Source: Chitinophaga caeni
GTDB taxonomy: Bacteria > Bacteroidota > Bacteroidia > Chitinophagales > Chitinophagaceae
Reading direction: 5' to 3'
Length of the DNA: 64,000 bases
Assembly (NCBI RefSeq): GCF_002557795.1
Contig: NZ_CP023777.1
Coordinates: 3,481,001-3,545,000 of the forward strand
The position numbers were made by a program, and so were the translations under genes. Positions 17,398 through 53,774 of this stretch are shown here, in pieces (the first letter of the stretch is position 1; every line of letters begins with the position of its first letter). The notes below the pieces were generated by a model. The model was not told the DNA's origin, did no database searches, and saw nothing but the letters and a program-made list of their open reading frames with translations.

Positions 17398-17481
17398 GCC
17401 CAGATGGCGGAACTGGTAGACGCGCTAGACTCAAAATCTAGTTCTCGCAAGGGAGTGGGGGTTCGATTCCCCCTTTGGGCA
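17398..17481 (+). tRNA. tRNA-Leu(CAA), copy 1
   Basis: An 84-base cloverleaf with acceptor stem GCCCAGA/TTTGGGC and discriminator A. The anticodon arm is CTAGA-CTCAAAA-TCTAG, giving anticodon CAA (codon UUG). It has the long variable arm expected of leucine tRNAs and T arm GGGGGTTCGATTCCCCC. CCA is not encoded. A second identical gene lies at 53691-53774 on the other strand. Confidence 0.97.
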
Positions 17482-17483
17482 CT

Positions 17484-23507: not shown

Positions 23508-23540
23508 AACCCGGGCAATGAAAATTACCCGGGTTTTTTT
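23508..23540. terminator. Bidirectional terminator between peptidase and redoxin genes
   Basis: AACCCGGG pairs with CCCGGGTT (with an inner partly paired region); a T7 run follows on the plus side and TTCTTTTTT on the minus side. It serves both converging genes. Confidence 0.9.
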
Positions 23541-23576: not shown

Positions 23577-24743
23577 CTACATTCCGAAGATTTTTTCTAA
23601 CTCTTTGTCTAAACCATCGCCGCCGGTACCTACTTCCTTGTAAATGATAGTTCCGCTTCTATCAACCAGGATTTTAGTAGGGAAACCCGTTACCGCAAAT
23701 TTAGCTACCAAGTTGTCCTTATCCTTATTGTAATTATTTAATACATGCAACCATGGCAATCCATCATCTTTAACAGCTTTGAGCCAGCTAGTTTTCGCTG
23801 CATCAAGTTCATCGCTTTTCTCATTGGCGATCCCTACAATTTCGAAGCCTTTTGATTTATACTTGGCATACAAATCTTTCAAATGCGGGTTGCCCGCGCG
23901 GCATGGTCCACACCAGCTACCCCAAAAGTCGATCAGCACGTATTTTCCTTTAAGTGAATTTAAGCTAAGCATATCACCGCCGGGCGTGGGTTTCGTAAAA
24001 TTGGGAGCTTTAAAACCGATCGCCGTATTCTTAGTGCCTTCTATTTTTTCGTGGATCGTTTCGGCCATGGCTGTTGCTTTCATCTCATCTGAAAGATGAT
24101 TATATGCACGCTCGTAATCTGCTAAACTATATTCTTCGTATTTTCCAGATAATATAAGTACGCTAACATAAGAGTTAGGATGTGATTTGATAAACTGCTT
24201 CTCATGGCGATCAATCTTATCACTATTATCCTTCATTTCTTTCATGATAGCCTTACGTTTCAAGCTATCCGATAGTGGCATTTTCGCTGATTTTTTCCTT
24301 AACTCCCAGTTCTCTTTGATTAAAGGAAGCGTTTTTTTCTTCAGCTTATTATATTCCTTGTTTAATTTCCCCCCGGTGACTCTGGCCATGAACAATTCAT
24401 CTGCATTCCCTTTAATTGTAATGGGCGCATCCTCTACGAAGAACTGTAACCTTGGGCTAGGCATAAACATCCCTCCTTTAACCAGCTCGAACTTCGAAGA
24501 AGGATGATTGGAGATTAAGAATCCAAAAGTCGGCCCCTGGAAGCTACCCCGGAATTGAATATGATCGCCGTTTACAACAGCGGGGCTATCGACATGCTGC
24601 TTGTTACCTTCCAACAGGTAAGCTTTCACGCTATAGCCCGATTGGTTCTTAATATCCGAATTAATCCTGTATTCTTTTTTTTGTGCCCGGGTCATGTTGG
24701 CCAGTAAAAAAGTACTGGCCAAGATCAAACTGATTCTTTTCAT
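23577..24743 (-). CDS. Exported TlpA-like thiol-disulfide oxidoreductase with DUF4369-type N-domain
   Basis: The frame is open from 24821, but the ATG at 24743 starts a normal signal peptide (MKRISLILAS ... TRAQ), giving 388 residues. The N-terminal part resembles the DUF4369 domain often fused to Bacteroidota redoxins. The C-terminal part is a thioredoxin fold with active site WGSWCGPC and cis-proline region FAVTGFPTKILVD. It likely acts in the periplasm as a thiol reductase or oxidase. It is last in a four-gene operon after susC, susD and a second tlpA, 13 bases after its neighbour. Its partner substrate is unknown. Confidence 0.88.
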   Translation of the reverse strand: MKRISLILASTFLLANMTRAQKKEYRINSDIKNQSGYSVKAYLLEGNKQHVDSPAVVNGDHIQFRGSFQGPTFGFLISNHPSSKFELVKGGMFMPSPRLQFFVEDAPITIKGNADELFMARVTGGKLNKEYNKLKKKTLPLIKENWELRKKSAKMPLSDSLKRKAIMKEMKDNSDKIDRHEKQFIKSHPNSYVSVLILSGKYEEYSLADYERAYNHLSDEMKATAMAETIHEKIEGTKNTAIGFKAPNFTKPTPGGDMLSLNSLKGKYVLIDFWGSWCGPCRAGNPHLKDLYAKYKSKGFEIVGIANEKSDELDAAKTSWLKAVKDDGLPWLHVLNNYNKDKDNLVAKFAVTGFPTKILVDRSGTIIYKEVGTGGDGLDKELEKIFGM

Positions 24744-24756
24744 GGTTGGTTTTTGA

Positions 24757-25986
24757 TTAGAAGCTTGACATGGAAGCAGAGCGAACCGCTTTCGGAGCCT
24801 TCTCCTTGTTTTTAATAGCATTTTCTATTTTTTCATGCGCTTCATCAGTGAAGCCCGTATATTTATTTATGATATTTCCTTCCGGATCAACGAGGTAGAG
24901 TGTCGGGATACCGCTGAACTGGAATGTTTTCATGGTTTCATCCTTATTGCTGGAGAGCATTTGTTCCCAGGGCATATTTTCATCTTTCATCGCTTTTCTC
25001 CAAGCTTTTTCATCCGTGTCGATAGATATACTTACCACGGCAAATCCTTTTTCTTTGTACGTTTCATATAATTCTTTGACTTTAGGGATGGCTTGCCTGC
25101 AAGGACCGCACCAGCTAGCCCAGAAATCAACCAGTAAATACTTTCCTTTATACTTTTCCAAGTTGGCAAGTTGTCCGCCGGGCGTGGGGTAGGAGATGGA
25201 AGGCATCGGTTTTCCAGCCTTCAGCTTTTGTGCCTGCTCCATGTTAAAGATGATATTCTTCTTCAGGTCTTTAGCCTCTGTCAACCAGGGATATTTACCG
25301 ATTAATACATCCAGCATCGACAATGCACGGTCATATTTCTCCCCGGCTTCTGTACCCGCCATACCGCGGATGGCATATATAGCCACGGGCCGATCTTGGT
25401 ACGAGCGGATCAATATTTCTTGCCTGGTTTCGAAATCCTTCGATAAAGGATTGTAAACCGTTCTTGTTTCGAGGTAATGGTTAAATGCAGAGTCAGTGGA
25501 CTTCTTAGCATAATATTGCATGTTATATTCGTCGATCATCCTGCGGTAATTCAATTCGGAATTCAACACGCTCATGTTGACGAAATTGTTATCATACGAT
25601 CCCTCTACATAATTATAATGCGGTACTTTTACTTTGTACCTTGCCGTATCGTAGCCGCGCATGGAAACTTTCACATCTGCATCGCTCCAAAAAGTGGCAT
25701 GATCCCAATGCAGGGCATCGATGGAATATACTCCCTGGTGGTCCTGTTTGAGTGTAAATGTGAAACTGTTATCCTCCTTGAGCAAACAACTGTCTACTGC
25801 TGTTGGTTTCCCAACCAGGGATTCTTTCATGAGCCAAATTTTTTGCTCCTTGGTCCTTGGATCTCTAAACTGCACTTTTCCTTTTACGGTGATCGATTTA
25901 ACGATCTTGTTTTGTTGTGCCAGCATGGTAATTGGACTCGCTAATAAGGCAAGCGGCATCCAAGATTTTAATACGAATCGTTTCAT
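24757..25986 (-). CDS. Exported TlpA-like thiol-disulfide oxidoreductase (second copy)
   Basis: A 409-residue protein with signal peptide (cleavage near MLAQ), a long N-terminal domain that differs from its neighbour and a C-terminal thioredoxin fold with WASWCGPC and cis-proline region FSGIPTLYLVD. It is similar to the next gene only in the redoxin part, so the pair looks like diverged paralogues, not a recent duplication. It starts 20 bases after the susD stop, which makes it part of the same operon. The tail after the fold is charged and Ser/Lys-rich. Confidence 0.88.
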   Translation of the reverse strand: MKRFVLKSWMPLALLASPITMLAQQNKIVKSITVKGKVQFRDPRTKEQKIWLMKESLVGKPTAVDSCLLKEDNSFTFTLKQDHQGVYSIDALHWDHATFWSDADVKVSMRGYDTARYKVKVPHYNYVEGSYDNNFVNMSVLNSELNYRRMIDEYNMQYYAKKSTDSAFNHYLETRTVYNPLSKDFETRQEILIRSYQDRPVAIYAIRGMAGTEAGEKYDRALSMLDVLIGKYPWLTEAKDLKKNIIFNMEQAQKLKAGKPMPSISYPTPGGQLANLEKYKGKYLLVDFWASWCGPCRQAIPKVKELYETYKEKGFAVVSISIDTDEKAWRKAMKDENMPWEQMLSSNKDETMKTFQFSGIPTLYLVDPEGNIINKYTGFTDEAHEKIENAIKNKEKAPKAVRSASMSSF

Positions 25987-26006
25987 TTTATTTTACTTAA
26001 CTGATT

Positions 26007-27353
26007 TTACTTACTATAATCTTCGTTTTGCTCCAAATCAGGGTTTACTAGGAACTCGTGACTTGGAATGGGTAACAAGGCATGTGTGGCAGGCTGCCCG
26101 AGGGAACTGAGCCAATTATCTAGTTTCCCGAACCGGCGCATGTCTTGCCAACGGAGTCTTTCCCCTACAAATTCCCTTCTTCTTTCCTTCTCAATTTCAT
26201 CTAGAAATTCTGCGGGGCTGCTGAAATCGAGCGCTTGTACCGTACTCGCATGGCGGGCTGTTCTTAAAGCATTATATTCCTGTACTTCCACGGCGCCTTT
26301 CCTGGCCTTGGCCTCGGCTATAATTAAATAAGCTTCACTCAACCTGCATACCGGGTATGAGGGGGTAGTTTCGGGGCTAAACTTCATGAGGAAATAAACG
26401 GTATCAACGATGCTAGCGCCTTTGGCTCTTAGGAAATAAGCTTTCCTAATATCATTGGATTCATACGATTTTACCAGGTTAGAATCAATCCAGTTATTGC
26501 CACTTCCGGGATAATCCGGGCCGACGGTTTTACCGGGACCGAAGATGTAGCTTAAACCGTATTGATCTGAAGTAGGCGTAGTTGTTTCATTGATCTTGTA
26601 AATAGATTCCTTACTATTGGCCATGGATTTAAAAATCGCGGGGAAGTCGGAACCTAGTTGTAACGGACTTTTCGAGGGATCCATCACATCTTTGGCGAGC
26701 AAGATCGCCTCATCATTTTTCCCTTGGTTAAGGTATAATCTTGCGAGTAAAAGTTGTGCCGCTTGTTTAGACCCGGTTCTGGCATCAGAATAATCCGGTA
26801 GTAAAGACGCTGCTTCTTTCAGATCATTCTCGATTTGATCCTGTACTTCTGCTAATGTATTTCTGTCACGGCGTACTTTCGGATCTTCATCACCGTATAC
26901 TAATACTACACCGCCGAAATGTTCTGATAATAACATATAGCTGTATGCCCTTATTAAATAAGCTTCACCTACGGTGGCGCTGATTTTTTCACTGATCGAA
27001 TTTTTTATACCGTACTTGATAATCATGTTGGCCGTAGCGATCGCTGTGTAAGGTTGGCGAAACATGAAGGTCAGCGTATTCTCCGTAGGCGATACATTGT
27101 TACTTTCCCAGGATGTGAGGGTAATCGACTCTACATCATCCGACATGATATCTTGATGGGAATAGTACAGGTAAAATGCGTTGTTGCTGGTCAGGGCGAG
27201 TTTAGCCCCGTTTAAAGCCAGGGGTAAATTATTATCATTTAATTGATCGAATGTAATTTGTGTGTCCGGCTTTATTTCATCGAGCTTTTGGCTACAGGAA
27301 GCCATCACTGCGAATGCGGGGACGAGTATGATATAGTTAAATAATTGCTTCAT
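26007..27353 (-). CDS. SusD/RagB-family surface nutrient-binding lipoprotein
   Basis: The lipoprotein (448 residues from the ATG at 27353; a second ATG two codons earlier is possible) forms the lid over the SusC-type channel and captures substrate at the cell surface. It has a lipobox (VMASC, Cys near 20), TPR-like helices in the first half and the typical RagB C-terminal stretch with ERRREFVGERLRWQDMRRFG, which is the clearest SusD signature. The gene starts 6-12 bases after susC. The partner genes encode two redoxins, not glycanases, so the imported substrate may be a peptide or a thiol-containing compound; that is inference. Confidence 0.95.
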   Translation of the reverse strand: MKQLFNYIILVPAFAVMASCSQKLDEIKPDTQITFDQLNDNNLPLALNGAKLALTSNNAFYLYYSHQDIMSDDVESITLTSWESNNVSPTENTLTFMFRQPYTAIATANMIIKYGIKNSISEKISATVGEAYLIRAYSYMLLSEHFGGVVLVYGDEDPKVRRDRNTLAEVQDQIENDLKEAASLLPDYSDARTGSKQAAQLLLARLYLNQGKNDEAILLAKDVMDPSKSPLQLGSDFPAIFKSMANSKESIYKINETTTPTSDQYGLSYIFGPGKTVGPDYPGSGNNWIDSNLVKSYESNDIRKAYFLRAKGASIVDTVYFLMKFSPETTPSYPVCRLSEAYLIIAEAKARKGAVEVQEYNALRTARHASTVQALDFSSPAEFLDEIEKERRREFVGERLRWQDMRRFGKLDNWLSSLGQPATHALLPIPSHEFLVNPDLEQNEDYSK

Positions 27354-27365
27354 GTACATTTGAGT

Positions 27366-30300
27366 TTAGAATGATAGATCAAGACCTAGAACCGTGGAAC
27401 GTGGATTCGGTAAATTGCTCGTGATAATTCCCGAGTTAGAGGCTGCTTCAGGATCGAAACCTATATAATCGCTGATGGTAAATAGATTTTGAGCAGCAAC
27501 ATAGAAACGCGCACTGTTCATTTTCAACTTGGCAACCAGCTTTTTCGGTACGGTATAACTAACACTCAGGTTGCGTAGTCTTACGTAAGAGGCATCATAC
27601 ACGAATTGAGTGGAAGGACGGTAGTTCCAATCGGTTGAATTTCCCGCGCCATGGGCGCCCGTGATAGCTCTCGGTACATCGGTTTTATCGCCGGGTTGGC
27701 GCCAACGCTTATTCACGATGTCGAACTTGTTGGGCATCACGCCGAAATAGTCGAGGTCATAATTTCTCAAGGTTTGTTCGTAGTAGTCATACACCTTGTT
27801 TCCTGAAACATAACTAAACAGCGCTTCCAATCCGAAACCCTTATAACCCAAGGAAATGGTTGTGCCGCCGATGAATTTGGGCATGGCGATCGGAACGGTA
27901 ATCATATCATTGGTATTCCATAAACCGTCCTTGTTGCGATCATTATAAATCATATCACCTGTTTGCGGATCTACGCCGAGGGATTCATAAACCAATACCG
28001 ATCCAACGGATTGACCGACCTTCGATTTCGACATCGGGCCGCCAAATGTGTACGTTCCGTAGTTCGTGAGGGAGTCTTTCATCGAGATGATGATGTTCCT
28101 GTTGATATTCATATTAGATGAAACCTTCCAGGTGAATGCGGCGCCCGCTTTGCTGGAAAATGCAACTTCGAGATCCAGGCCGCGGTTGCGGATATTACCG
28201 ATATTATCAGGAATGGCGGAAGCCCCGTATATCCAGGAAACTTCGTTCCTACTCACTAAACCATCCGTTAGCTTGTTATAAAAATCAACGGTGAAGCTCA
28301 AGCGGTTATTCAGTAACGCGGCATCCAGGCCTACATCAACCTGTTTGGTTCTTTCCCAGCGTATCTCGGGGTTGCCGATGATGCCGTTCAACTTTAAAGC
28401 GGATGTTCCCATGTAGGAACCCACGATCAATAAATTTTGCGCATCCCAGTAACCGACTGGTCGAATGTTTCCGCTGATGCCATAGCTGGCGCGTAATTTT
28501 AGTTGGTTGAATAAACCGTTGTTATACAGGAAATTTTCTTTCGCGATATCCCAACCACCGGAAATAGAGGGGAACCAACTATAGCGCTTGTCTTCCAACA
28601 ATTTTGATGAGCCATCGCGCCGGATAGAAGCATTCAGCATATATTTACCTTCCCAATCAAATCCTGTTCTCAAGAAATATGCATCGGAAATTTCCTTGTT
28701 ATAAGTATTCAAACTGGGGATCATGCCGCTACTACCATAGCTTGAACCCGCAGCAGGTCCCGAGATGCCGTCGATCTTGGGAAAACCGTTTATCTCGTAA
28801 CCGAAACTGCTAAATTCATTGCTATAATAAGTGTACCCCAAGGTTGCATTGATACCTAGCTTTGAAATACGCTTGTTATAAGTAAAATAGTTGTCGAAAG
28901 TATAGCTCAGGTTATCATAACCATTGGTTTCCTGTTCGCCACCGGAATAATAACCCAGGTAAGAAAACGGCGAGTAGAAATTCCTGGAAACCGTATTATA
29001 CTTGGTCGTGTTGAAAGCCGAACGGAACTGCAAACCGTCGAAAAGTTTAATGTCGGCAGAAAGATTACCAAGATACATGATGTTCTTATTCTTGTTCTTG
29101 TTATCCATGAGCACCCCGAAAGGATGTTGCTGGTATCCTACATAGTAACCCAGGCTTCCATCCGGTTTATATACTGGATCTTTCGGCGTATCAGGGCGGG
29201 CATTGAATGCCGACACCAGGTTGTTCGACATATTCTTGGTTGCGCCCTGGGTGATATTGATATTACCGTTCAGCTTTAACCAGTCGTTCACGATCTGGGT
29301 AATATCAATTTTCCCTGTATATCTTTCAAAAGTGCCGGTACCAATAGGGGCATCTTCACTATACCTGCCTATTGACATATAATAATTATTCTTACTGCCA
29401 CCGCCGCTCATACTAGCTTGAATATTATTGACCGGTGCATTTTTATTTTTTACGGCATTGATCCAATCGGTGCTCCTGTCTGCCAGCTGTAAAGCATCCA
29501 GTTGACCGTTCAACCGGTTTTTTTCGTTGTTTAATTGGCTGATTTGGCCCGGCGTCAGGTTGCCCGGGTTGTTTAACAGGTTGTCTATATCCGAAATCCT
29601 GTTATTGCGCGCGTCGTTGAAAGCAGATCTGTATTCTTCCGTACTTAGCATGCGCCTGTTAGTAGGTACATTATTGTACCCTGTATAAGCATTGACATTA
29701 AAGCTCGGCGCACTGTTCATCCTACCTTTTTTAGTAGTAATGATGATAACGCCGTTAGATCCCCTGGCGCCGTAAATTGCGGCGGAAGCTGCATCCTTCA
29801 ATACCTCGATATTCTCTATATCCTGTGGATTGATGGAGTTGAGGCTGATGGTATTTCCTTCAACAACTAGTCCGTCGATTACCAGTAAAGGTCCGCCAGC
29901 CGTAGCATTCACAGATTGAGTACCCCGTATTTGGATGTTCGGTGTACTACCCGGTGTACCGCTGGAATTGGCTACAAATACACCTGCTACACGCCCTTGC
30001 AAGGCTTTGCCCACGTCGGAGACGATATTTTTCTCTGGGCTGAGTGCGCTGCTATTCACGGTAGAGATAGAATTTGTTAGCGTCCCCCTTCTTTGGGAAC
30101 CGTAGCCCACTACCACGGTACTAGCCAATTCCAGCGAGCGCATTTTCATAAAAATGACATTCTTCCTGATAAAGCTCGCTTTGAGTATAACATTTTCGAA
30201 ACCAATGGATGAGATCTGGATTTGGGCATTAGCGGGAACGGTTAATTCAAACTCGCCGTTTTCATTTGTTACTACACCTTTGTTCGTACCCACTACTTTG

Positions 30301-30422
30301 ACTGTTGCCCCGGGTACCGGTTGTTGTGAAACAGAATCCTTCACCGTACCTTTTAGGACTTGCTGCGCGGTAGCTAATAGGCTGCCAGAGCAGAGTAGCA
30401 TTAATAAGAGTAATTTTCTCAT
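27366..30422 (-). CDS. SusC/RagA-family TonB-dependent outer-membrane transporter
   Basis: A 1018-residue outer-membrane channel that imports substrate with energy from TonB-ExbBD. It has a signal peptide, an N-terminal carboxypeptidase-regulatory-like domain (about 22-95), a TonB box/plug segment (VVVGYGSQRRGTLTNSIS) with the plug motif GARGSNGVIIITTKKG near 225, and a beta-barrel ending in a C-terminal Phe (LGLDLSF). There is no STN domain, so signalling is not through an anti-sigma factor; the divergent LytS/LytTR operon is the more likely controller. It is first gene of the operon susC-susD-tlpA-tlpA. Confidence 0.95.
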   Translation of the reverse strand: MRKLLLLMLLCSGSLLATAQQVLKGTVKDSVSQQPVPGATVKVVGTNKGVVTNENGEFELTVPANAQIQISSIGFENVILKASFIRKNVIFMKMRSLELASTVVVGYGSQRRGTLTNSISTVNSSALSPEKNIVSDVGKALQGRVAGVFVANSSGTPGSTPNIQIRGTQSVNATAGGPLLVIDGLVVEGNTISLNSINPQDIENIEVLKDAASAAIYGARGSNGVIIITTKKGRMNSAPSFNVNAYTGYNNVPTNRRMLSTEEYRSAFNDARNNRISDIDNLLNNPGNLTPGQISQLNNEKNRLNGQLDALQLADRSTDWINAVKNKNAPVNNIQASMSGGGSKNNYYMSIGRYSEDAPIGTGTFERYTGKIDITQIVNDWLKLNGNINITQGATKNMSNNLVSAFNARPDTPKDPVYKPDGSLGYYVGYQQHPFGVLMDNKNKNKNIMYLGNLSADIKLFDGLQFRSAFNTTKYNTVSRNFYSPFSYLGYYSGGEQETNGYDNLSYTFDNYFTYNKRISKLGINATLGYTYYSNEFSSFGYEINGFPKIDGISGPAAGSSYGSSGMIPSLNTYNKEISDAYFLRTGFDWEGKYMLNASIRRDGSSKLLEDKRYSWFPSISGGWDIAKENFLYNNGLFNQLKLRASYGISGNIRPVGYWDAQNLLIVGSYMGTSALKLNGIIGNPEIRWERTKQVDVGLDAALLNNRLSFTVDFYNKLTDGLVSRNEVSWIYGASAIPDNIGNIRNRGLDLEVAFSSKAGAAFTWKVSSNMNINRNIIISMKDSLTNYGTYTFGGPMSKSKVGQSVGSVLVYESLGVDPQTGDMIYNDRNKDGLWNTNDMITVPIAMPKFIGGTTISLGYKGFGLEALFSYVSGNKVYDYYEQTLRNYDLDYFGVMPNKFDIVNKRWRQPGDKTDVPRAITGAHGAGNSTDWNYRPSTQFVYDASYVRLRNLSVSYTVPKKLVAKLKMNSARFYVAAQNLFTISDYIGFDPEAASNSGIITSNLPNPRSTVLGLDLSF

Positions 30423-30450
30423 ACGATTTGTTGGTTGATTTTTTGGTTGT

Positions 30451-30464
30451 CAGATGGCCATCTG
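30451..30464. promoter_or_regulatory. Perfect 14-bp palindrome upstream of susC
   Basis: CAGATGGCCATCTG lies 29 bases before the susC ATG in the divergent region shared with the kinase operon. It could bind a dimeric regulator or form a leader hairpin. LytTR regulators usually bind direct repeats, so it is not clearly their site. Confidence 0.35.
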
Positions 30465-30628
30465 TTGGAATAGGTTTCCAAAGTACTTAGCTTCATTGTT
30501 CTTTTATCCGATTTTGGACAAGTCCCCGTTTTTCGAGTACAATCAAGGAATGGATAGGTATGAAAAAAAAATCCATGTTTTGATAATGTTTAGCTTGGAT
30601 ATTGTAGTAATTTCAAGTTGAATTAGCC

Positions 30629-31591
30629 ATGAATTATTACCGCGAAATCAACAGATACTTAATACATGGAGCCATCTGGATGGCCTTAATTTTCCTGTAT
30701 TCATTCCCATCGTTAAATGCATCTTGGGGATCGGGTAACGGTATGCGTTGGGTATTAGTAAGGAATGTATTATATGGATTTATAAATTTTAATTTGTTTT
30801 ATTGCTTGGTATTTGCCGTATTAGCATACCCGGTCAAACGCCGGAAATATGGCTTGGCTTTGTTACTGGCATTTTCGATGATTTTCATATTCGGCGTCCT
30901 AAAGTATCTCGCCGGGAAATACTTCTTCCCGGATATCATATTACAAAAAATGATCGCGTTAATCGGTATGCCCAAATCGTATTTTACTTTTTGGGAATAT
31001 ATGAGGCAAGCTATCAAAACAGGGTTAGGTGTAGGTTTATTGGCTTTCGGTTACCATTTATATTTGTATTACCGTAATAAACAGTCGGGCGAAGAAGATA
31101 TTGCAGAAGAATTGCAGCTTGCAAACTTCCGGTTTAAGCGGATGCAAAAAGGTTCCAGGTTTTTATTGCATCATATCAATGAACTGTCGCCGGTATTGGA
31201 AGATGATCGGCGCCGGATAGAAGCGGGCAGTGAAGCGATCCTTTTATTGTCGGAATTATTGCGGTATAACCTGTACGAAAAAATAACCGCAGACATGACC
31301 GTGGATATTAACAAGGAACTGTATTATTTTCAACAATATTTATCATTAAAAAAAATATTGCACCCGGAACAAACATTACACCTGCAAGTGCTGGGAGAAA
31401 CGGCAGGGTTAAAGTTAGAGCCGATGCATTTGCAGTATTCTGTAGAAGAACGGTTGCCGGCATTCCGGCAATACCAAGGTGATTTGGATGTGATTTTAAA
31501 ATGTCACGGCAACAGGGTAGGGATAAATATTTTGCAAACGCAAGCGCCGGGTATATTATTAGAGATGAAATCGGGTTTATTGCATGATTAA
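30629..31591 (+). CDS. Degenerate LytS-like sensor (probable pseudokinase)
   Basis: The 320 residues have four hydrophobic helices in the first 150 residues and then a cytoplasmic part that aligns in layout with His_kinase (LytS/YehU-type) proteins. Where these carry PHFLFNxLN, this one has SRFLLHHINEL, placing Arg at residue 177 where the phospho-acceptor His is expected. The ATPase N-box (ENAxKHG) and the GxGLxN loop are missing; the protein ends in an unrelated stretch. It therefore probably cannot phosphorylate and may act as sensor or regulator of the intact kinase encoded next, whose start overlaps it by 8 bases. Confidence 0.75.
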   Translation: MNYYREINRYLIHGAIWMALIFLYSFPSLNASWGSGNGMRWVLVRNVLYGFINFNLFYCLVFAVLAYPVKRRKYGLALLLAFSMIFIFGVLKYLAGKYFFPDIILQKMIALIGMPKSYFTFWEYMRQAIKTGLGVGLLAFGYHLYLYYRNKQSGEEDIAEELQLANFRFKRMQKGSRFLLHHINELSPVLEDDRRRIEAGSEAILLLSELLRYNLYEKITADMTVDINKELYYFQQYLSLKKILHPEQTLHLQVLGETAGLKLEPMHLQYSVEERLPAFRQYQGDLDVILKCHGNRVGINILQTQAPGILLEMKSGLLHD

Positions 31592-32645
31592 GTCGAGGTG
31601 GAGGCAATTTTTTGAACTGTTGATCTTGTTCATGCTCGTGATTTACGGAATGAACTTATTAACGCTTACCGTTTTCACAAGGGAAACGATCCGGTTTGTA
31701 AATGTACGCGCCGGCATTTTCGGTCTTATTAACTTTCTAGAATTTTATATATTTTTCAGGTGGGCAGTTTCCAAGTATTTCCCTGCAAAAGATTGGTTGA
31801 GGTTTAGCCTGGTAGTAAGTGGTAATGTAATTGTATTCAACCTATTCCGCTATGCAATGTCATTCCTGTTGTTTCCGAAAATTCAGTTATACCAAGGTTA
31901 CCGTTACGATTTGATCAGCAAGCAGAGAATCGAAGTGTACATTACGTTTAAACAATACTTCTTGATGGGGTTATGGACGGGCTTCGTGTTATTATTGGCT
32001 GCATTTGCATGGTATTATTTTAAACACTGGTTAGACGAAGATCACCGGAGGGCTTTATTGCAACAACAAAAAGCTAAGGCAGAATCTGGTTTTTTAAAGA
32101 TGCAACTCAATTCCCATTTCCTAATCAACAGCTTGAACAGTATTTACTCTCTCTCGCTCGTGGGTTCGCCCGAAGTAGTTTCTGCCAATAGAACTTTAGC
32201 GCAATTGATATCATATATGGTCAACCAACCGGATGATATTACTTACCGCTGTTCCATAAAAGAAGAGCTTGCATACCTGGAAGATTATATCAGCCTGCAA
32301 ACCTTGAGAACCGGTTGCCCGGAAGGGGTACAGGTAAATTTCCAGGAAAGCTTACCTGGCAAGTCAATAGCTCCCTTGTTGTTAGTACCATTTGTTGAGA
32401 ATGCATTCAAGCACGGGGTTACAAACCAAGCACAATTCCCGGTTGTTATTGAACTGGAAGCTGATGAGGCGTGCATTCTTTTTAAAGTAAGGAATAAGAA
32501 ATCAACTTCGCATAAAGATAAAGTGGGTGGTATCGGATTGGAAAATGTAAGGAAAAGGTTAGAGTTAATTTACCCGGGTAAACATGAGTTGGTAATTACG
32601 GAAACGGAAGTTGAATATTTTAGTAGTTTAATGATCAAATGGTAA
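31584..32645 (+). CDS. LytS-like sensor histidine kinase
   Basis: A 353-residue inner-membrane kinase with four hydrophobic helices (about 10-150) and a His_kinase plus HATPase module. The phospho-acceptor is H178 in LNSHFLINSLNSI; the N-box is PFVENAFKHG and the glycine motif GGIGLENVRKRL. It likely phosphorylates the LytTR regulator encoded 3 bases downstream. Its membrane part resembles that of the preceding pseudokinase in layout, so the two may form a mixed dimer. It is divergent from the susC operon. Confidence 0.9.
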   Translation: MIKSRWRQFFELLILFMLVIYGMNLLTLTVFTRETIRFVNVRAGIFGLINFLEFYIFFRWAVSKYFPAKDWLRFSLVVSGNVIVFNLFRYAMSFLLFPKIQLYQGYRYDLISKQRIEVYITFKQYFLMGLWTGFVLLLAAFAWYYFKHWLDEDHRRALLQQQKAKAESGFLKMQLNSHFLINSLNSIYSLSLVGSPEVVSANRTLAQLISYMVNQPDDITYRCSIKEELAYLEDYISLQTLRTGCPEGVQVNFQESLPGKSIAPLLLVPFVENAFKHGVTNQAQFPVVIELEADEACILFKVRNKKSTSHKDKVGGIGLENVRKRLELIYPGKHELVITETEVEYFSSLMIKW

Positions 32646-32648
32646 GTT

Positions 32649-33341
32649 ATGAGCTTGAAATGTATCGTGGTTGATGATGAACCTTTGGCGATCCAGGTAC
32701 TGGTTTCTTTTATTAAGAAATGCCCGGATCTTCAATTGCTTAGAAGCTTTACAAACCCGGTAGATGCCTTGGCTTATATGAAGGAGAACGTGGTTGACCT
32801 GGTGTTTTTGGATATCCAGATGCAGGAATTAAACGGTATCGAGTTCATGCAGCTACTTCAAAATACTGCCAAGGTGATTATTGTTTCTGCTTATGATGAT
32901 TACGCGGTGAAAGGTTTTGAGCAAGAAGCCGTCGATTATTTATTGAAACCGGTTTCATTTGATCGGTTCACGAAATCTGTCGCCAGGGTAGTTGCCAAAA
33001 ACAAGCCCGTTATAAAAGAGGCTGAGAAAGATAAGTATATCTTTGTCAGGACTGATAAACGTATTGTTCGACTAGATATCCGCGATATTTTATTCGTGGA
33101 AGCGCTTCGCAATTACGTGGCCATCCAAACTGGTAAACAGAAAATACTCACCCTGCAAAATCTTAGGAGTTTTGAAGATCTGTTAAACGATAACTTTATC
33201 CGGGTGCATAAATCATTTATCGTGGCCCTGGATAAAATCGACAGCATCGAAAGGCAACGGATATTTATCGGTACCCATACCATTCCTATCGGGGAATCTT
33301 ATATGAAACAGTTTATGGAAGCTTTGACTTTTCCCAAGTAG
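32649..33341 (+). CDS. LytTR-family response regulator
   Basis: The 230 residues consist of a receiver domain (1-120, phospho-acceptor D55 in VFLDIQMQELNG, acidic pair VDDE at 8-11, Lys in LLKPVSFDRF) and a C-terminal LytTR DNA-binding domain (about 130-228, with KIFVRTDKRIVRLDIRDILF-like start and FIRVHKSFIVALDKID). It is third gene of the kinase operon. By position it probably controls the divergent susC-susD-tlpA-tlpA operon. Confidence 0.93.
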   Translation: MSLKCIVVDDEPLAIQVLVSFIKKCPDLQLLRSFTNPVDALAYMKENVVDLVFLDIQMQELNGIEFMQLLQNTAKVIIVSAYDDYAVKGFEQEAVDYLLKPVSFDRFTKSVARVVAKNKPVIKEAEKDKYIFVRTDKRIVRLDIRDILFVEALRNYVAIQTGKQKILTLQNLRSFEDLLNDNFIRVHKSFIVALDKIDSIERQRIFIGTHTIPIGESYMKQFMEALTFPK

Positions 33342-36544: not shown

Positions 36545-37552
36545 TTAATTCGATGATAATGGCAATGGCTTCACGCCGCTAAACGTAATCTTAACCGGCA
36601 AGATATTCCCCTTGGCATCGAAATGCATCTCATCAATACAGGTAGCCCTGTGGTTGGCGTGAGTTTCCCCTAAAGGACGGCGGTGGTAAATAATAAACCA
36701 TTTGTCACTTTTTTCTTCATGCAGTATTGAATGGTGACCGGCGCCCGTCGCGATTTTAGGATCTTGTTGTAAAATTTTCCCGATCCTTTTGAAGGGCCCC
36801 ATTGGGGAGTCCGCGATAGCGTAAGCGACAGAATAATCCGGGCCGCCCCAGCCACCTTCCGACCACATGAAATAGTATTTACCGCCACGTATGAACATGA
36901 AGGGGCCTTCCACGTATTTTTCAGGGGTGATTTCCTTGAAGTAGCTCCCATCTTCAAAAGGTTCGAAACCGGTAAAGTCATTATTTAGCTTGGCAACATT
37001 GCAATGTCCCCAACCCCCGTAGTAAATATAATATTGCCCATCCTTATCATGGAACACGAACTGGTCGATCGGTTGCGCACCGTTGTATAACTTGTCGATT
37101 AGCGGTTTGCCGAGGTAGTCCTTGTATGGACCGGCAGGTTGATCTGCCACGGCAACCCCGATGCCCCCGTAATCACGGCTGGGGTCTTGTATGTCGTTCG
37201 CACCGAAAAAGAAGAAATATTTTCCGTCTTTTTCAATAACAGCCGGCGCCCACATGGCCCTATTGGCCCATTTGATGGCGCTGGAGTCTAAAATTCGGGG
37301 ATGCTTATTCCAATGCACGAGGTCTTTAGACGAGAAAGCATCGAAAAACACTTGTTTTTCGTAAATATCAGAGTAGGTAGGAAATATCCAGTAAGCAGTA
37401 TCGAACTTAGCTACCTCGGGATCAGCGTACCAGCCTGGAAATAAGGGATTGCCCGATGTTTTTTGTTGCGCTGAGCTATCTTGGATAGTGCAAGACAGCA
37501 GCATGGTGCCGGCAAGACCTAATATTATTTTTTTCTTTATTATTTGGATCAT
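36545..37552 (-). CDS. Glycoside hydrolase family 43 lipoprotein
   Basis: A 335-residue five-bladed beta-propeller glycosidase, of a family acting mainly on arabinose- or xylose-containing glycans. The catalytic residues can be placed as Asp in GWYADPEV (base), Asp in QPIDQFVF (pKa modulator) and Glu in YVEGPFMF (acid). The N-terminus has a lipoprotein signal (MLLSC, Cys near 21), so it is probably anchored in the periplasm or at the surface. It is not in a polysaccharide-use locus here: no susC/susD lies beside it. Confidence 0.9.
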   Translation of the reverse strand: MIQIIKKKIILGLAGTMLLSCTIQDSSAQQKTSGNPLFPGWYADPEVAKFDTAYWIFPTYSDIYEKQVFFDAFSSKDLVHWNKHPRILDSSAIKWANRAMWAPAVIEKDGKYFFFFGANDIQDPSRDYGGIGVAVADQPAGPYKDYLGKPLIDKLYNGAQPIDQFVFHDKDGQYYIYYGGWGHCNVAKLNNDFTGFEPFEDGSYFKEITPEKYVEGPFMFIRGGKYYFMWSEGGWGGPDYSVAYAIADSPMGPFKRIGKILQQDPKIATGAGHHSILHEEKSDKWFIIYHRRPLGETHANHRATCIDEMHFDAKGNILPVKITFSGVKPLPLSSN

Positions 37553-53688: not shown

Positions 53689-53690
53689 AG

Positions 53691-53774
53691 TGCCCAAAGG
53701 GGGAATCGAACCCCCACTCCCTTGCGAGAACTAGATTTTGAGTCTAGCGCGTCTACCAGTTCCGCCATCTGGGC
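53691..53774 (-). tRNA. tRNA-Leu(CAA), copy 2
   Basis: Identical in all 84 bases to the gene at 17398-17481, with the same anticodon CAA and long variable arm. Upstream sequence to the -7 element and downstream sequence through the terminator are also nearly identical, so the block was duplicated as a unit. An open frame across this block is not a gene. Confidence 0.97.

Follow-up and report, generated by a model that had tools for sequence, protein, structure and literature searches.

Positions 23577–33341 of a 64,000-nucleotide stretch of the Chitinophaga caeni genome (contig NZ_CP023777.1, positions 3,481,001 to 3,545,000; the whole stretch is called the window below) carry two divergent operons that together look like an undescribed, switchable unit for import and redox handling. 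One operon encodes a SusC/SusD outer-membrane importer followed by two TlpA-like redoxins, TlpA1 and TlpA2, and the other a switch composed of a LytS-like pseudokinase (psHK), a LytS-type histidine kinase (HK) and a LytTR response regulator. The block is not a chance assembly, since it recurs, in a full or a minimal form, in 38 of the 79 Chitinophaga genomes sampled. Judged from gene content, what invariably accompanies the switch is TlpA1 and not SusCD, because in 12 of the 38 loci TlpA1 and the switch persist although susC, susD and tlpA2 are absent. Control of the susC–tlpA operon by LytTR appears well supported, because the two operons co-occur, the repeats in the gap between them have a fixed geometry and the promoter boxes lie at mostly conserved distances.

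All seven genes of the preliminary description were found where it had placed them, and their families were confirmed by Pfam and NCBIfam:

27366–30422, minus strand: susC, TonB-dependent SusC/RagA importer with an N-terminal CarbopepD_reg_2 domain; orthologs in 26 of 79 genus genomes
26007–27359, minus strand: susD, lipoprotein with lipobox Cys22 and a single further cysteine, Cys338
24757–25986, minus strand: tlpA1, redoxin with a beta-sandwich (weak DUF4369 match), a helical domain and a thioredoxin domain with CGPC; 38 of 79 genomes
23577–24743, minus strand: tlpA2, DUF4369-TlpA redoxin, found in the 38 loci only together with susCD
30629–31591, plus strand: psHK, LytS-like pseudokinase without the phospho-acceptor His, N-box and G-box motifs
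31584–32645, plus strand: HK, LytS-type histidine kinase with His178, FVENAFKHG, GGIGLxN and four hydrophobic segments
32649–33341, plus strand: LytTR response regulator with receiver residues Asp9, Asp10 and Asp55; 38 of 79 genomes

The genes are tightly packed, with gaps of 6 bp between susC and susD and 20 bp between susD and tlpA1, an overlap of 8 bp between psHK and HK, and 3 bp between HK and lytTR. The listed open reading frame (ORF) of tlpA2 begins at 24821 and would overlap tlpA1; the ATG at 24743, followed as it is by a signal-peptide-like stretch, is probably the start, which leaves 13 bp between the two redoxin genes. The divergent gap between susC and psHK measures 206 bp (30423–30628). 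According to the ORF list and Pfam, no glycanase or peptidase is present in the window's operon, the redoxins alone following susD.

Among the 56 SusC matches and 19 PF06580 stretches of the source genome, a comparison of positions identified this susC as the sole one that faces a LytS operon in direct divergence. For two others (L050 and L051) an HK–LytTR pair is found no more than about 5 kb away, with other genes intervening. L050 (7666–11659, in the stretch 4764001–4784000 of the source genome) is a further SusCD locus with HK–LytTR nearby, in which the gene of an Rce1-like protease overlaps the kinase start; this 275-aa gene ahead of the kinase was considered as a second pseudokinase and rejected.

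Distribution within Chitinophaga and beyond

TlpA1 orthologs were found in 38 of the 79 genomes (E ≤ 5e-140; 54–69% identity excluding the window's own copy, the next listed match being 38%), and the same 38 genomes contain orthologs of psHK (E ≤ 4.5e-31; 35–51% identical to the window's copy) and of the LytTR regulator (E ≤ 1.2e-76; threshold 1e-72). At 1e-15, psHK was matched in 39 genomes, namely the same 38 and G194, the latter with 23% identity. With the genes of the 37 other neighbourhoods placed by tblastn, TlpA1, psHK and LytTR proved to be adjacent in 37 of 38 cases, the LytTR gene of G217 being on a separate contig. SusC was matched in 32 genomes at 1e-200; orthologs (61–73%) are confined to 26, all within the 38 and none in the 41 others, and the remaining six genomes hold paralogs only (41–44%). 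All 26 SusC orthologs adjoin the kinase operon and share with it a gap with conserved LytTR-type repeats, which supports the earlier proposal that the divergent operons form one unit.

The full architecture, tlpA2-tlpA1-susD-susC // psHK-HK-lytTR, is present at 26 loci, the window included, and a minimal one, tlpA1 // psHK-HK-lytTR, at 12, where susC, susD and tlpA2 are absent as a block and the TlpA2 probe matches the tlpA1 gene only. The expectation of the preliminary description that the seven genes recur together thus holds for 26 of the 38 loci and fails for the 12 that have only TlpA1 and the switch. The assembly G209, 65% complete, has broken frames and partial SusC and psHK matches and was excluded from the tree. 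In the tree of 37 loci, based on joined alignments of TlpA1, psHK, HK and LytTR, five changes of architecture were counted (bootstrap 5–95% range 5–5), at least four of them being forced by the starred branches; gain and loss are not distinguishable in it. A tree of LytTR only gave seven changes with poorer support. Among 24 full loci, the pairwise distances of SusC track those of TlpA1, HK and LytTR (r = 0.90–0.93; 0.87–0.93 for SusC and SusD together). Since the SusC and SusD distances follow those of the other proteins, the susC-susD-tlpA2 module was probably co-inherited and then lost together, with tlpA1 retained and brought next to the shared promoter. Four genus genomes (L106:2808–14137, L107, L108 and L109) hold paralogous loci of the order SusC-SusD-(~254 aa)-(519 aa)-TlpA-TlpA; for L106, an extracytoplasmic function (ECF) sigma factor, FecR, DUF4843 and PKD_2 were recognised by Pfam.

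Outside the genus, ten TlpA1 relatives were found at E ≤ 1e-85 in 394 genomes of the family, and eight of them are encoded in operons directly divergent from HK–LytTR. Three of these operons are without SusCD (L060, L063, L116) and five have SusCD and a second redoxin (L210, L211, L212, L214, L216); in L211, L212 and L214 the second redoxin adjoins the kinase and a 271-aa gene follows susD (a thioredoxin in L211). As for the remaining two, the kinase in L213 does not stand directly opposite and is truncated where the contig stops, though its HFLxN motif is present, and L215 ends with its contig. Because SusC of the five loci is only 28–31% and LytTR of the eight 40–50% identical to the window's proteins, the outside loci represent by these values the same theme and not strict orthologs. 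The operon of L211 (4042–13937; likewise L212 and L214) is a SusCD operon with three redoxins divergent from HK–LytTR, and it comprises, by Pfam applied to L211 only, tlpA, a Kelch/DUF6242 protein, a Thioredoxin_7 protein and tlpA1.

A second set consisted of 25 loci with LytTR relatives (45–53% identity), 20 chosen from matches in the 394 family genomes and five others, three of the 25 (L117, L121 and L129) lying within the genus or the source genome. Directly opposite HK–LytTR there are SusC–SusD in eight loci, a TlpA1-like gene in four, a gene of 775–821 aa in four and others in nine. The SusC–SusD operons directly faced by HK–LytTR (L110, L111, L112, L113, L120, L055, L056, L057) include several with two SusCD pairs in a row, and among the loci divergent from the 775–821 aa gene (L114, L117, L121, L122) that of L114 encodes an OMP_b-brl_3 beta-barrel receptor.

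The base rate was estimated from TlpA loci listed from named records, 79 of 80 being usable; the set is non-random and consists mostly of distant TlpA, and L130 (46% over most of the query) is the only near-full-length close TlpA relative among the matches listed. A SusC-like gene lies within six ORFs in 30 of these 79 loci and a match to the LytTR probe was seen in 12. SusC together with LytTR occurs once, versus 13 cases of SusC with FecR/ECF, so that redoxins with a SusC-like gene and LytTR are uncommon in this set, in keeping with the earlier statement that redoxins as the sole downstream genes under LytTR control are less usual.

The divergent gap and the LytS/LytTR switch

The following elements were located in the gap between susC and psHK:

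30516–30524, plus strand: operator repeat 1, GGACAAGTC, predicted from the repeat array
30537–30545, plus strand: operator repeat 2, GTACAATCA, predicted from the repeat array
30558–30566, plus strand: operator repeat 3, GTATGAAAA, predicted from the repeat array
30479–30485, minus strand: TACTTTG as read on that strand, probable susC promoter -7 box, from the box spacing
30608–30615, plus strand: TAATTTCA, probable psHK promoter -7 box, 50 nt past the first base of repeat 3

The gaps left of psHK, 166–308 nt long and bounded on the left by susC or tlpA1, all contain three direct GKAYNW repeats with a period of 21 bp and the consensus GTACGTACNGGC-N9-GTACGATCCGGC-N9-GGACGAAAAAAA. The triple is present with period 21 in 38/38 gaps and with each of 23 other periods, from 12 to 35, in 0/38; on the reverse strand it was found with period 21 in one gap, and 12 of the 38 gaps have two or three triples. 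Elsewhere in the 1.23 Mb scanned (the window and L050–L109, both strands) there were 14 further triple matches: 12 at a single homologous place antisense to lytTR (e.g. L104:13843, minus strand), one in a gap but on its reverse strand, and one at another place. The antisense triple may be chance of the code, because 21 bp correspond to seven codons.

A CAANNTA box precedes repeat 1 by 36–37 nt, counted from the second base of the repeat, in 33 of the 38 gaps; in three it stands at 15 nt, i.e. one repeat unit less (36 − 21), and the remaining two carry CGAAAATA there. Shuffled flanks had the box at 36–37 nt in a mean of 0.09 loci, with a maximum of 2. CAANNTA reads TANNTTG on the minus strand, which we take to be close to the -7 box of Bacteroidota. 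Towards psHK, a TANNTT box is found 49–50 nt past the start of repeat 3 in 26 gaps and 37–39 nt past it in 11, and is absent in G209. With direct repeats about 21 bp apart in every gap, the array is a predicted LytTR operator. Published LytTR sites, in the available text of PMC11347149, are 9-bp direct repeats 10–13 bp apart, three repeats at intervals of 18–21 bp being bound by CoxC and three 8-bp repeats with 12–13 bp between them belonging to RcoM; promoters of LytTR regulatory systems (LRS) have mostly 12-bp spacers in the corresponding portion of PMC6193735. The repeats described here closely fit this geometry. Since they lie upstream, we infer that control takes the direction of activation and self-activation. 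In gaps outside the genus, period 21 was best or tied-best by autocorrelation in 8 of 14, which are weak signs.

The switch itself has the constituents of a LytS/LytTR two-component system, i.e. a kinase with His, N-box and G-box and a regulator with a receiver domain (PF00072; Asp9, Asp10 and Asp55 in 36/36 rows) and a LytTR domain (PF04397). Identity with BtsSR was rejected, the regulator scoring 137 bits versus a BtsR model cut-off of 246. PF06580 recognises HK with 57.2 bits and psHK with 25.5, against a cut-off of 25.2. The label 'pseudokinase' given in the preliminary description proved apt: HFLxN, the N-box ENA[FI]KHG and G-box motifs of the GGIGLxN type are present in HK at 38/38 loci and in psHK at 0/38. 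All 38 psHK proteins have LLRYxLY, and 27 residues, including SxLLRYxLY, are invariant in 37 rows. A protein search with psHK gave six proteins, the window's own included. The psHK model (pLDDT 66.6, i.e. moderate confidence, six sequences) consists of four N-terminal helices, two long helices and half an ATPase domain; by hydropathy, three of the four N-terminal helices are membrane segments, HK having four.

The preliminary description had also named a dipeptidyl peptidase IV (DPP-IV)-like peptidase as a possible partner. It was rejected as a member of the unit: it lies on the opposite strand, no homolog was detected (blastp, E ≤ 1e-5) around the 37 other loci, two of these being short contigs, and a hairpin separates it from tlpA2:

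23510–23533, unstranded: GC-rich hairpin with A and T runs on its flanks, between DPP-IV and tlpA2, read by eye; a probable two-way terminator

A GH43 glycosidase gene (36545–37552, minus strand) lies about 3 kb past lytTR, outside the operon. The window also contains two inverted copies of tRNA-Leu(CAA), at 17398–17482 (plus) and 53690–53774 (minus), about 36 kb apart, each in a 197-bp block with 98% identity.

Importer, redoxins and proposed function

SusC scores 731 bits with TIGR04056 (cut-off 368), no STN domain being listed at E ≤ 0.001, and SusD exceeds the cut-offs of PF14322/PF07980, the lipobox pattern being present in 24 of 26 SusD rows. The locus thus has the SusC-type TonB-dependent receptor and adjacent SusD lipoprotein that define a SusCD importer, and lacks the glycanase or peptidase that usually, though not strictly, belongs to the operon. 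Solved relatives of both proteins are named SusC/SusD homologs and RagAB proteins. Cys338 of SusD is conserved in 25/25 orthologs versus 1/23 other SusD matches in the loci examined, where Ile or Leu mostly occupies the position and two of the 23 have alignment gaps; some orthologs have Cys87 or Cys106 in addition. For a thiol ligand, Cys338 may be taken as a lead, not as proof.

Both redoxins start signal-peptide-like, as read by eye. The TlpA1 model (pLDDT 86.8) comprises a beta-sandwich, a helical domain and a thioredoxin domain, and Foldseek related it to ResA, DsbE and Bacteroides TlpA domains (E 1.4e-13), only the thioredoxin domain being aligned among the 50 matches listed. Cys293 and Cys296 of CGPC are present in 37/37 rows, with no further column having Cys in 30% of rows, and 37 of 38 rows are without a lipobox pattern. 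With its thioredoxin fold, CxxC motif and fold-level match to TlpA/ResA reductases, TlpA1 is most likely a periplasmic CGPC redoxin acting as a reductase.

Given the observed gene content, co-conservation, repeat geometry and loss of catalytic motifs in psHK, it is on balance probable that the locus acts as one unit, with LytS/psHK as the sensor, LytTR acting on both operons, TlpA1 as the output and usually SusCD–TlpA2 added for thiol/disulfide import. An envelope signal would reach a membrane sensor made up of the active HK and its catalytically dead paralog psHK, and HK would phosphorylate the LytTR regulator. The regulator would bind the three 21-bp-spaced repeats and presumably drive both operons, so that the switch would feed back on itself. 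TlpA1, most likely a reductase, would be the constant output, to which most species would add the SusCD importer and TlpA2, most likely importing and reducing a disulfide- or thiol-bearing ligand, e.g. a peptide; this last step is the weakest.

Several observations weigh against this reading. Solved glycan and peptide importers match SusC and SusD equally, and nine of the 25 loci with LytTR relatives have no SusCD, TlpA1-like or large-receptor gene directly opposite. In the loci outside the genus, where LytTR is 40–53% identical, the three-repeat pattern was not found (pairs only, no triple), and no psHK-like truncated kinase was seen in the related loci there. The counts of the GKAYNW motif come from the very gaps where it had first been noticed; therefore, the real controls are its period, the promoter-box spacing and its scarcity elsewhere. 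Furthermore, conserved cysteine columns are scarce in the kinases: at 30% of rows, HK has none before residue 245 and psHK only Cys89 (17/37), a pattern that argues against TlpA1 signalling directly to the kinases through thiols.

The alternative that the locus is an ordinary SusCD nutrient locus, for a glycan or peptide, under a LytTR switch, with the redoxins as co-expressed general helpers of folding or repair, is a real possibility, if not a likely one. SusC-like genes are common near TlpA in the listed loci, the four genus genomes with paralogous SusCD and two redoxins include L106 with its DUF4843, PKD_2, FecR and ECF sigma genes, and, in the available text of PMC5320581, a LytTR-controlled glycan locus outside Bacteroidota is that of Roseburia, where HK and LytTR accompany an ATP-binding cassette importer. 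However, TlpA1 stays with the switch at the 12 loci where SusCD is absent and therefore does not serve this importer only, and the window's operon is without glycanase or peptidase. Uptake of a metal, heme or metallophore, the redoxins freeing or reducing the metal or cofactor, is unlikely. The xusABC system resembles SusCD, and relatives of TlpA/ResA act in cytochrome maturation. This xenosiderophore system exists in Bacteroides, according to the accessible part of PMC10434189; at the present locus, no metal-pointing feature turned up, Fur sites not having been searched and neighbours without a window homolog being mostly untyped.

That psHK has no role and is just a duplicate in decay is quite unlikely. 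It does diverge fast (35–51%) and is barely recognised by PF06580, but it is present in 38/38 loci, always between the gap and HK, its matches are without internal stops (only a partial match in G209), and it retains the invariant residues given above. That the two operons are adjacent by shared inheritance alone, with no functional link, is very improbable: descent alone can preserve adjacency, and all 38 loci belong to one genus, but TlpA1 and the switch were retained at each of the five architecture changes, the repeat period and promoter-box spacing are fixed while much of the gap varies, and the pairing is seen again in other genera.

A more far-reaching form of the unitary reading is rather doubtful. 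TlpA1, psHK, HK and LytTR would constitute a four-part envelope redox-sensing circuit, in which psHK receives the signal and gates HK, TlpA1 provides both output and feedback, and SusCD–TlpA2 is a plug-in importer whose disulfide ligand is read via Cys338 of SusD. If true, the LytTR circuits would gain a new class, and SusCD systems a first redox-linked member.

Relation to known systems

The usual reading of SusCD loci is that they import sugars or peptides and are controlled by hybrid sensors or sigma/anti-sigma pairs. In the present case, across half of the genus and more loosely beyond, a redoxin that outlasts the importer goes with a LytTR switch, one component of which is a conserved dead kinase. 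The likely DNA target of the switch is legible from the sequence, and the locus is a ready target for testing the role of redoxins beside SusCD and the purpose of a LytS pseudokinase. In the literature search, no paper joining Chitinophaga with LytTR was found, nor, in the accessible portions of the sources, any description of LytTR-controlled SusCD–redoxin loci. LytTR control of a nutrient locus is as such not new, as the Roseburia arabinoxylan locus lists HK and LytTR in the available text of PMC5320581. What seems new here is the combination of known parts with an unusual switch and a strong footprint.

The locus resembles SusCD/RagAB loci in its SusC, above the curated cut-off, in its SusD, by Pfam, and in the order susC-susD followed by periplasmic proteins. 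It differs in having two redoxins, LytS/LytTR in place of the hybrid sensor or ECF/FecR, an operon with neither glycanase nor peptidase, and a SusC for which no STN domain is listed. The L106 locus, ECF/FecR-SusC-SusD-DUF4843-PKD_2-TlpA-TlpA, shares the SusCD and TlpA tandem (36–38% identical to the window's in L106–L109), but has sigma/anti-sigma genes, two extra proteins and no adjoining LytTR. TlpA1 is like the TlpA/ResA periplasmic thiol-disulfide reductases in its thioredoxin fold with CxxC, the best solved matches being 3gl3, 4grf and ResA, and unlike them in its long N-terminal beta-sandwich and helical domain, left uncovered by these matches, and in the mostly absent lipobox pattern.

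To our knowledge, the regulator of an LRS has no receiver domain and is not accompanied by a kinase. On this definition the locus is not an LRS, having both a receiver domain and an active kinase; these same two features distinguish it from the LRS with a membrane inhibitor in the available part of PMC6193735, which it resembles in combining a LytTR regulator and a non-kinase membrane protein in one operon, with probable self-control via direct repeats. Finally, the operators of CoxC and RcoM, as far as the accessible text of PMC11347149 describes them, likewise consist of three direct repeats at a spacing of about two helical turns, whereas here the regulator is a two-component receiver–LytTR protein, the half-site is GKAYNW and the array lies between a divergent pair of promoters.

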